Made by a program: the position numbers and the translations under genes. A model generated the notes under the pieces. The model saw only the letters and a program-made list of their open reading frames with translations, was not told where the DNA came from and ran no database searches. From Chloroflexota bacterium (lineage in GTDB: Bacteria; Chloroflexota; Anaerolineae; Anaerolineales; Villigracilaceae), in NCBI GenBank assembly GCA_016234495.1, contig JACRBI010000054.1, positions 248,001-312,000 on the forward strand: 64,000 nucleotides of DNA. Direction: 5' to 3'. Below, piece after piece: positions 32,120-44,235 of the stretch (its first letter is position 1; every line of letters starts with the position of its first letter).

Positions 32120-33019
32120 ATGAACCTATGGCAGGAATATAAACGGCCAGCTTCCGTCACGGAAGCAATTCAAGCCCTCACATCTGCGCCTGGTCCGGTC
32201 ATGCCCATCGCGGGCGGAACAGATCTGCTGCTAGACTTGAAACAAGGCCGCCACTCCCCCGTCCACACATTAATTGATTTGACTTTCGTCCCGGAGATGT
32301 CCCTGCTCGAATTGAGAGGGGGCGAACTCTTCATCGGAGCCGCCGTCCCAGTCAACCGCGTCGCGCTCGACCCGTTGGTGGGTCAGCACGCCCAGGCATT
32401 GACCGAAGCTGCGAATTTGATCGCCGGCCCGCAAGTCCGCAATACCGCCACACTCGGAGGCAACGTTGCCCACGCGCTCCCCGCCGCAGACGGCACCATC
32501 GCCCTGACTGCTCTCAATGCACAAGCCGAAGTCGCCAGCCCCACAGGGACTCGACGTATGCCTTTCACTTCGCTCTTCCTCGGCCCGGGCAAGTCAGCAA
32601 TTGACAAGACAAAAGAAATCATCGTCGGTTTTTACATTCCAATTAAGACCTCCAAGTTCTCCAAGAACTCGGAGGTCCCCCGCACCGCTTCTTGCTTCAA
32701 GCGCATCATGCGCCCGCAGGGAGTTGCTTTGCCCATCTTGAACTGCGCCGTCTGGCTCGAACGCGAAAGTGAAATCGTCATAGATATTCACATCGCTGTC
32801 GGTCCCGGCAGTTCAATTCCCTTCCGCGCCACCGAAGCGGAAGCCGCCCTGCGCGGACAATTCCTCAACGAAGAGACAATCAACCGCACGCTCGAATTCC
32901 TGCTTGGCCAGGCACAGTTCCGCACCAGCGCCCGCCGTGCCAGCGCAGACTATCGCAAGCATATCGTCGGCGGCTTGTTCAAGGATGTGTTGGATACCGC
33001 GTGGGCAAGAGCGAGTTAA
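32120..33019 (+). CDS. FAD-binding subunit of a molybdenum hydroxylase (YgfM/CoxM type)
   Basis: 299 aa. Electron-transfer flavoprotein of an XDH-like enzyme. FAD motifs are AGGTDLLLDLK (about residues 33-43) and ATLGGNVAHALPAADG (near 110). The C-terminal CO-dehydrogenase-flavoprotein domain has SCFKRIMRPQGVALPILNCA. Between IPIK and SCFKRI about 15 residues are encoded by a palindromic repeat (32647-32677), an apparent in-frame insertion. The ATG at 32120 follows a GGAAGG site; an upstream in-frame start is implausible. The partner gene is now 560 bases downstream because an element has inserted between them. Confidence 0.85.
   Translation: MNLWQEYKRPASVTEAIQALTSAPGPVMPIAGGTDLLLDLKQGRHSPVHTLIDLTFVPEMSLLELRGGELFIGAAVPVNRVALDPLVGQHAQALTEAANLIAGPQVRNTATLGGNVAHALPAADGTIALTALNAQAEVASPTGTRRMPFTSLFLGPGKSAIDKTKEIIVGFYIPIKTSKFSKNSEVPRTASCFKRIMRPQGVALPILNCAVWLERESEIVIDIHIAVGPGSSIPFRATEAEAALRGQFLNEETINRTLEFLLGQAQFRTSARRASADYRKHIVGGLFKDVLDTAWARAS
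32647..32677. repeat. Palindromic repeat inside the FAD-subunit coding sequence
   Basis: GACCTCCAAGTTCT (32647-32660) pairs with AGAACTCGGAGGTC (32664-32677), one mismatch, 3-base loop. The CTCGGAGGT wording also makes up the intergenic palindrome at 44203-44235. Confidence 0.6.
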
Positions 33020-44202: not shown

Positions 44203-44235
44203 AAACCTCGGAGGTCTTCAAAACCTCCGAGGTTT
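44203..44235 (-). terminator. Palindrome/terminator AAACCTCGGAGGT
   Basis: 13-bp perfect arms (44203-44215, 44223-44235) with a 7-base loop, downstream of the minus-strand LCP gene. On the minus strand the arm is followed by TTTAAATTTTCC. Related to the palindrome inside the FAD-subunit gene. Confidence 0.6.

Follow-up and report, generated by a model that had tools for sequence, protein, structure and literature searches.

Short dispersed palindromes lie in frame at recurring codons of conserved enzymes in Anaerolineales

Background

Palindromic repeats that keep the reading frame are known above all from Rickettsia. A stretch of 64,000 nucleotides of a Villigracilaceae genome (hereafter the window) contains a palindrome inside an intact gene for a CoxM/YgfM-like subunit. 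The first-pass annotation of this DNA had taken it for an in-frame insert that homologues lack, worded like an intergenic palindrome further along the window and reminiscent of the Rickettsia elements. It asked whether the residues are an insertion relative to homologues, and how many copies of the palindrome across the genome lie in genes and keep the frame.

The palindrome and its gene

The palindrome at 32647-32677 is the hairpin GACCTCCAAGTTCT-CCA-AGAACTCGGAGGTC, with 14-bp arms, a 3-base loop and one A/C mismatch (32654/32670). We searched the window for hairpins whose 14-bp arms have no more than one mismatch and whose loop has 0 to 8 bases, and found 8 places (19 overlapping listings), whereas 11 of 12 dinucleotide shuffles of the window had none and one had 2 listings (mean 0.17). 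No such hairpin was found in 300 codon-permuted copies of the CoxM-like gene. The inverted repeat proposed in the first-pass annotation is therefore real, and the shuffles and the codon permutation reject a chance palindrome. The hairpins at 32647 and 44203 are members of the dispersed family described below; some of the others in the window look terminator-like.

Table 1 Features of the palindrome, its gene and the second family member in the window
Feature	Position	Strand	Basis
CoxM/YgfM-like FAD-binding medium subunit gene, 299 aa, intact	32120..33019	+	Pfam, structure match
Palindrome stretch, 11 codons AAG ACC TCC AAG TTC TCC AAG AAC TCG GAG GTC = K176-V186	32645..32677	+	Alignment of 69 orthologues, AlphaFold2 model
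Left arm, arm type A (GACCTCCRAGTTCT; window letters GACCTCCAAGTTCT)	32647..32660	+	Palindrome search
Hairpin loop CCA	32661..32663	none	Palindrome search
Right arm AGAACTCGGAGGTC	32664..32677	+	Palindrome search
Intergenic copy of the family, arms AAACCTCGGAGGT / ACCTCCGAGGTTT, arm type ACCTCGGAGGT	44203..44235	none	Family pattern, hairpin count

The gene product matches PF00941 (FAD_binding_5, 2e-41) and PF03450 (CO_deh_flav_C, 6.8e-19) and is an FAD subunit of the CO-dehydrogenase/xanthine-dehydrogenase type. The top match among solved structures is CutM of CO dehydrogenase (1ffv_C, 6.9e-30), the sequence of which is nine residues shorter at the palindrome site. The palindrome is read as TSKFSKNSEV after K176 (to residue 186), in the gap that separates both Pfam domains. 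In an AlphaFold2 model of the protein (mean pLDDT 80.2, 32 sequences) residues 175-187 are predicted to lack regular structure, between strands 167-174 and 188-195, with pLDDT below 50 at 179-182, and the palindrome-encoded stretch fits a putative tolerant loop.

We have read this region in 69 CoxM orthologues, 57 of them matching at E up to 1e-120 in 152 genomes of the lineage and 12 weaker, some still weaker matches being left out. The segment between the fixed motifs on either side is 29 residues long in the window protein and 20 in 49 of the 69 orthologues, which are thus nine codons shorter, as expected for an insert absent from homologues, and none of the 69 contains an alignable loop of equal length without the palindrome. 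Full-length palindromes (up to about two arm mismatches) are present in 11 of the 69, all in one reading frame at the same codons, and belong to at least four arm types. The 24-residue loop of L027 looks like a palindrome remnant, and the other non-palindromic loops have 20, 23, 25, 32 or 38 residues, the long ones (L100, L034) being of other sequence.

Other repeats were also seen at these codons. Heptamer-like repeats (TTACCAA type) occupy them in genomes without the palindrome (L022, L028, L031, L082), and the loop of L100 has another in-frame repeat, CCCTTCGACGCCGCTCAGGGCAAG, between heptamer-like repeats. In addition, a second hairpin, TTTGCGRAGCACCCCC..GGGGGC, was found inside the palindrome loop, similar in a CoxM gene with B arms (L103:842-905) and in an aconitase gene with E arms (L133:2079-2142), and is possibly a long form of the element.

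A dispersed palindrome family

A family pattern was derived from three palindromes found at the CoxM site, with the same pattern reversed as control. In the genome of the window (G000, 4,095,714 bases) it matched 27 places, versus 2 for the reversed pattern, and 23 of the 27 copies are perfectly complementary over 11-bp arms, though the pattern does not require perfection. The first-arm types were ACCCTAAAGGT (10 copies), ACCTGACAGGT (6), ACCTCCGAGTT (5), ACCTCGGAGGT (3) and three singles that include the window copy, ACCTCCAAGTT. The palindrome at 44203 is thus of the same family, as had been supposed, but it has a different arm type.

The element spans about 31-33 bp and consists of two quasi-palindromic units of 13-15 bases, inverted and usually 3-8 bases apart, in several discrete arm types; most arms are themselves near-palindromic. 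In the 64 copies examined in three genomes the outer two bases co-vary, AG..CT in 47 and AA..TT in 12, and the ends are AGACC..GGTCT or AAACC..GGTTT in 59. Ten selected relatives had 2-58 places each (0-2 for the reversed pattern). Among 201 sampled Chloroflexota genomes, those of the same genus (n=6) had 12-44 places and other members of the family (n=7) 0-16, with 0-4 in the remaining 188 except for one with 11. The palindromes are thus concentrated in one Anaerolineales family, probably Candidatus Villigracilaceae and its relatives.

Copies in frame inside genes

Most copies are intergenic. In the three genomes where copies were classified, 17 of 67 are genic and in frame, genic status being given by a home-made codon-usage score on both sides of the copy and not by a gene finder. 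The proportions, including the CoxM copy, were 5/27 in G000, which supports the genic residence of a dispersed palindrome suspected in the first-pass annotation, 8/22 in G060 and 4/18 in G034 (18 of 20 places examined, 2 not fetched). In G077, with 15 places, none of the three copies examined was genic. One copy of G060 (L282), scored as non-genic by codon usage, is nonetheless an in-frame part of a gene for a SIR2-family protein. Coding sequence makes up most of such a genome, so that these figures amount to a depletion of copies in genes, as selection would produce.

The host genes identified by Pfam code for aconitase, a DUF1800 protein, a MoeA-like protein and a SIR2-family protein, and with our own reading added for PyrC-like and PheT-like proteins, the name PyrC-like resting on an amidohydrolase match and this reading. 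A 650-residue protein (L053) and a membrane protein (L046) had no Pfam match.

Reuse of the same codons and loss of host codons

Beyond what the first-pass annotation had noted, different palindromes occupy the same codons in relatives, host codons have been lost there, and five other genes behave like CoxM. The six genes with reused sites are CoxM, aconitase, the PyrC-like gene, the gene of the 650-residue protein, DUF1800 and CoxL, and trees were examined for two of them. Besides CoxM and aconitase, each pair among these three genomes has one gene in common that is filled at an identical codon, namely the 650-residue protein in G000 and G060, DUF1800 in G000 and G034 and the PyrC-like gene in G060 and G034. 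In CoxL two divergent loci (L041, L168) are filled at one site and L167 has a decayed copy, natives not being counted there. The frame is constant within each of the reused genes other than CoxM and aconitase, although most arm types offer two or three open frames.

Aconitase was matched in 52 of 57 genomes of the genus and 51 loops could be read (that of G147 was not parsed). Eleven contain a full palindrome, 8 are half, short, degenerate or otherwise altered, and 32 are native with 11 residues. The arm types of the 11 filled alleles are D in five, E in three (one nested), B in two and A in one. In the aconitase of the window's own genome (L117) the region WRPLPSSP...RPGI has a second in-frame palindrome-like insert, CCTCCCCCATTTCC-GCA-GGAAATGGGGGAGG.

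For the PyrC-like gene we read the best 30 loci of 123 genomes with a match. They comprise 7 full family members, 3 half elements, 6 palindromes of an unrelated family, 2 other GC-rich sequences, 4 polypurine tracts, 7 native loops and 1 not parsed. The unrelated family (CCCCTCTCCC/GGGAGAGGGG) sits at the same codons (e.g. L309, L313, L318, L320, L325). DUF1800 is filled only in G000 and G034 among the 27 loci parsed of 31. Filled alleles are over-represented in the PyrC-like, DUF1800 and 650-residue sets because the best-scoring loci were taken with a query that itself carries the palindrome. In the gene of the 650-residue protein, some loci (L373, L376, L377, L384, L385) have other coding sequence of over 30 bases between the inverted units, as if these could hold a longer loop.

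Compared with natives, the net change is 0 codons in the 650-residue protein (two nearest natives), +1 to +2 in the PyrC-like gene, +4 to +5 in aconitase (+15 nested), +4 to +9 in CoxM (+18 nested) and +9 in DUF1800. With an element of about 11 codons, this implies that each case has cost the host gene roughly 2 to 11 codons of its own. A MITE would have the terminal inverted repeats of an insertion sequence and a target-site duplication. Between filled and native alleles host codons were lost and a duplication is not evident, but the genome pairs aligned (G137/G138 and G103/G141) offered no recent event of the family.

Stability between close relatives

The genomes G137 and G138 are about 97% identical. 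Of the 19 places of G138, ten were checked in G137. Four of these had no mapped counterpart; at the other six the copy is in place with an unchanged arm type, once with a single arm mismatch and once with a rewritten loop. No family gain or loss was found among gaps of at least 15 bases in 195,870 bp aligned between these two genomes (96.7%), nor in 87,368 and 34,142 bp of alignment for the pair G103/G141 (about 90-92%), a stretch of G103 with several family copies having no alignment to G141. The latter pair does differ in aconitase, filled in G103 and native in G141 with 93-97% identity within 30 nt of the loop, and in the PyrC-like gene, where a half element faces an unrelated palindrome. 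Furthermore, an unrelated CCCTCTCCC-type palindrome is a plain 39-base insertion, present in G141 and absent in G103. The loops of some terminator-like hairpins are inverted between G137 and G138 (L174-L193), e.g. GGATGATC vs GATCATCC, which is what template switching would give.

Origin of the in-frame copies

Different arm types at the same codons are most simply read as repeated independent gain. Our preferred reading, to which we give a probability of about 0.65, is that a dispersed hairpin family has been gained repeatedly, in frame, at the same codons of permissive loops, replacing host codons. From the patterns described above we infer that the gains were independent, that the copies are selfish or neutral, and by what chemistry they may be mobilised. 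The element would be a non-autonomous hairpin that lacks its own transposase and is exposed as a single strand in replication or repair, and it would be copied to new places by short-patch template switching or by double illegitimate recombination, the latter a known short-patch process, replacing a short host tract. Each gain would take away roughly 2 to 11 codons of the host gene and alter its length by a multiple of three, and selection would retain the in-frame copies in tolerant surface loops. Such short-patch copying of hairpins is favoured by the lost host tracts, the unrelated palindromes at one site, the half and nested forms and the rewritten loop, and it would be the most likely mechanism, although we propose it tentatively and at somewhat less than even odds. 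On the other side, replacement could equal an insertion followed by a deletion, the 39-base palindrome of G141 is a plain insertion, and no family event was caught between the near-identical genomes compared.

A wider version, which we consider possible if somewhat unlikely, is a general hairpin-writing process, in which single-stranded hairpins of several unrelated families would be written into restricted codon positions in place of the native loop, with no transposase dedicated to the task.

Short-tract horizontal transfer is an unlikely source of the pattern as a whole, but the aconitase alleles leave room for it. Filled cassettes of 40-100 bp would move between species and replace the native loop, and the arm types would differ by later exchange. 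G100 and G146 have the palindrome and adjacent bases in common, despite genes that are only about 75% identical. The threonine before the conserved lysine is replaced by valine in 5 of the 11 filled alleles (G143, G144, G146, G100, G103) and in none of the 40 other alleles (Fisher p 2e-4), suggesting co-adaptation or co-transfer. Judged by flanks of 45 nt to either side of the loop, the nearest allele is another filled one for G106, G151 and G128, the flanks of which at 45-200 nt point to other alleles, and for G144 a filled one tied with an altered one. It is an altered one for G000, and for G143 an altered one tied with a native one. It is these nearest flanks, together with the valine, that allow for transfer. 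The differences behind all these calls are, however, only 1-3 bases in 90. Against transfer, the nearest allele is a native neighbour on the tree for G103, G100 and G113; for G150 and G146 a native allele is tied with a filled and an altered one, respectively. Moreover, these arms are frequent at other places in the same genomes, and the valine codons differ (GTT, GTC, GTG).

We find it quite unlikely that each site was filled once by an old insertion and inherited vertically, with arm types changed by conversion from other copies in the genome and natives restored by recombination with unfilled relatives. The constant codon and frame in each gene would be expected from this, as would the stability of copies in place at 97% identity and the arm type B shared by the aconitases of G000 and G150. 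The presence or absence of the palindrome takes 9 changes on the CoxM gene tree built without the insert columns, and the 11 filled aconitase tips need 11 changes, about the level of random labels (200 label shuffles, mean 10.2, minimum 8) and the same when filled and altered loops together are set against native, although such parsimony counts cannot separate gain from loss. A single clade of filled aconitases is rejected (p-AU 3e-5). A further point against an old insertion is that around single filled tips the native aconitase loops have kept sequences particular to their clades (QVDKETL, EENGETI and VDGNDVL types), which is hard to account for by loss.

The copies might also be functional hairpins, that is terminators or RNA structures under selection that were recruited into genes, a reading that we regard as improbable. 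The stems of three copies have -18 to -22 kcal/mol, and a T-rich tract beside the stem (at least 6 T in 8 nt on one side) accompanies 15 of 50 non-genic copies, as in intrinsic terminators, so that some copies may serve as such; the tract occurs at 1.3% of random points, a contrast that is inflated because these points include coding DNA. The other 35 of 50 have no T-rich tract and the copies in genes lie within open frames, both unlike terminators. Half and altered elements persist, the loops are short in 49 of 69 CoxM and native in 32 of 51 aconitase genes, and unrelated palindromes, polypurine tracts or heptamer-like repeats fill some of the same loops.

Mobilisation as REP elements by a Y1 tyrosine transposase (RAYT) is very improbable. 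Passages of PMC3733652 describe REPs as palindromes of 20-40 bp that are mostly intergenic with some in ORFs, as our copies are, and report GTAG repeats for Chloroflexi and, in recB of two Xanthomonas species, different REPs at about the same site. The recB case, as those passages present it, means that site reuse has a precedent; in the Chloroflexota family it involves six genes, with trees for two. All 11 genomes searched, whether they have many copies or few, also contain Y1_Tnp genes. Among 30 Y1_Tnp loci examined of 54 matches in these 11 genomes no link of this transposase to the family was found, only one locus having a family palindrome within about 1.5 kb, which is about background by estimate. 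The low-copy genomes G126 and G041 have 5 and 3 Y1 matches versus 3-7 in richer ones, and the palindromes have their own usual ends instead of GTAG.

An assembly artefact or chance is negligible given the shuffles, the dozens of copies per genome and the in-frame copies across many separate assemblies, even though the genomes compared are probably mostly metagenome assemblies.

Relation to known repeats

A literature search that left many subscription journals outside found no report of this palindrome family. The very small mobile repeats of cyanobacteria, reportedly described by Elhai et al. in 2008, are said to be very short, dispersed and without a transposase of their own; the Chloroflexota palindromes differ from them in that they form nearly perfect hairpins, have covarying arms and lie in the reading frame of conserved enzymes. 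The comparison with the Rickettsia palindromic elements made in the first-pass annotation stands as far as both are short dispersed palindromes with some copies in frame in genes, as passages of PMC3733652 describe for the Rickettsia elements, and fails by sequence, as the CGTC end tag given there for R. conorii is absent from the Chloroflexota family, which also belongs to another phylum. In addition, the Chloroflexota family has discrete arm types at one codon across species, with host codons lost and a net change that goes down to zero.

Implications

Native, filled, half, nested and altered states are found at identical codons of conserved enzymes across related species, among 152 genomes of the lineage, and having these states side by side makes both the mechanism and the cost at the protein level testable by comparative genomics. 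Loop differences between such orthologues can stem from repeat DNA instead of point mutation. Should the general hairpin-writing process be true, the loops of conserved enzymes would be exchangeable hairpin cassettes.
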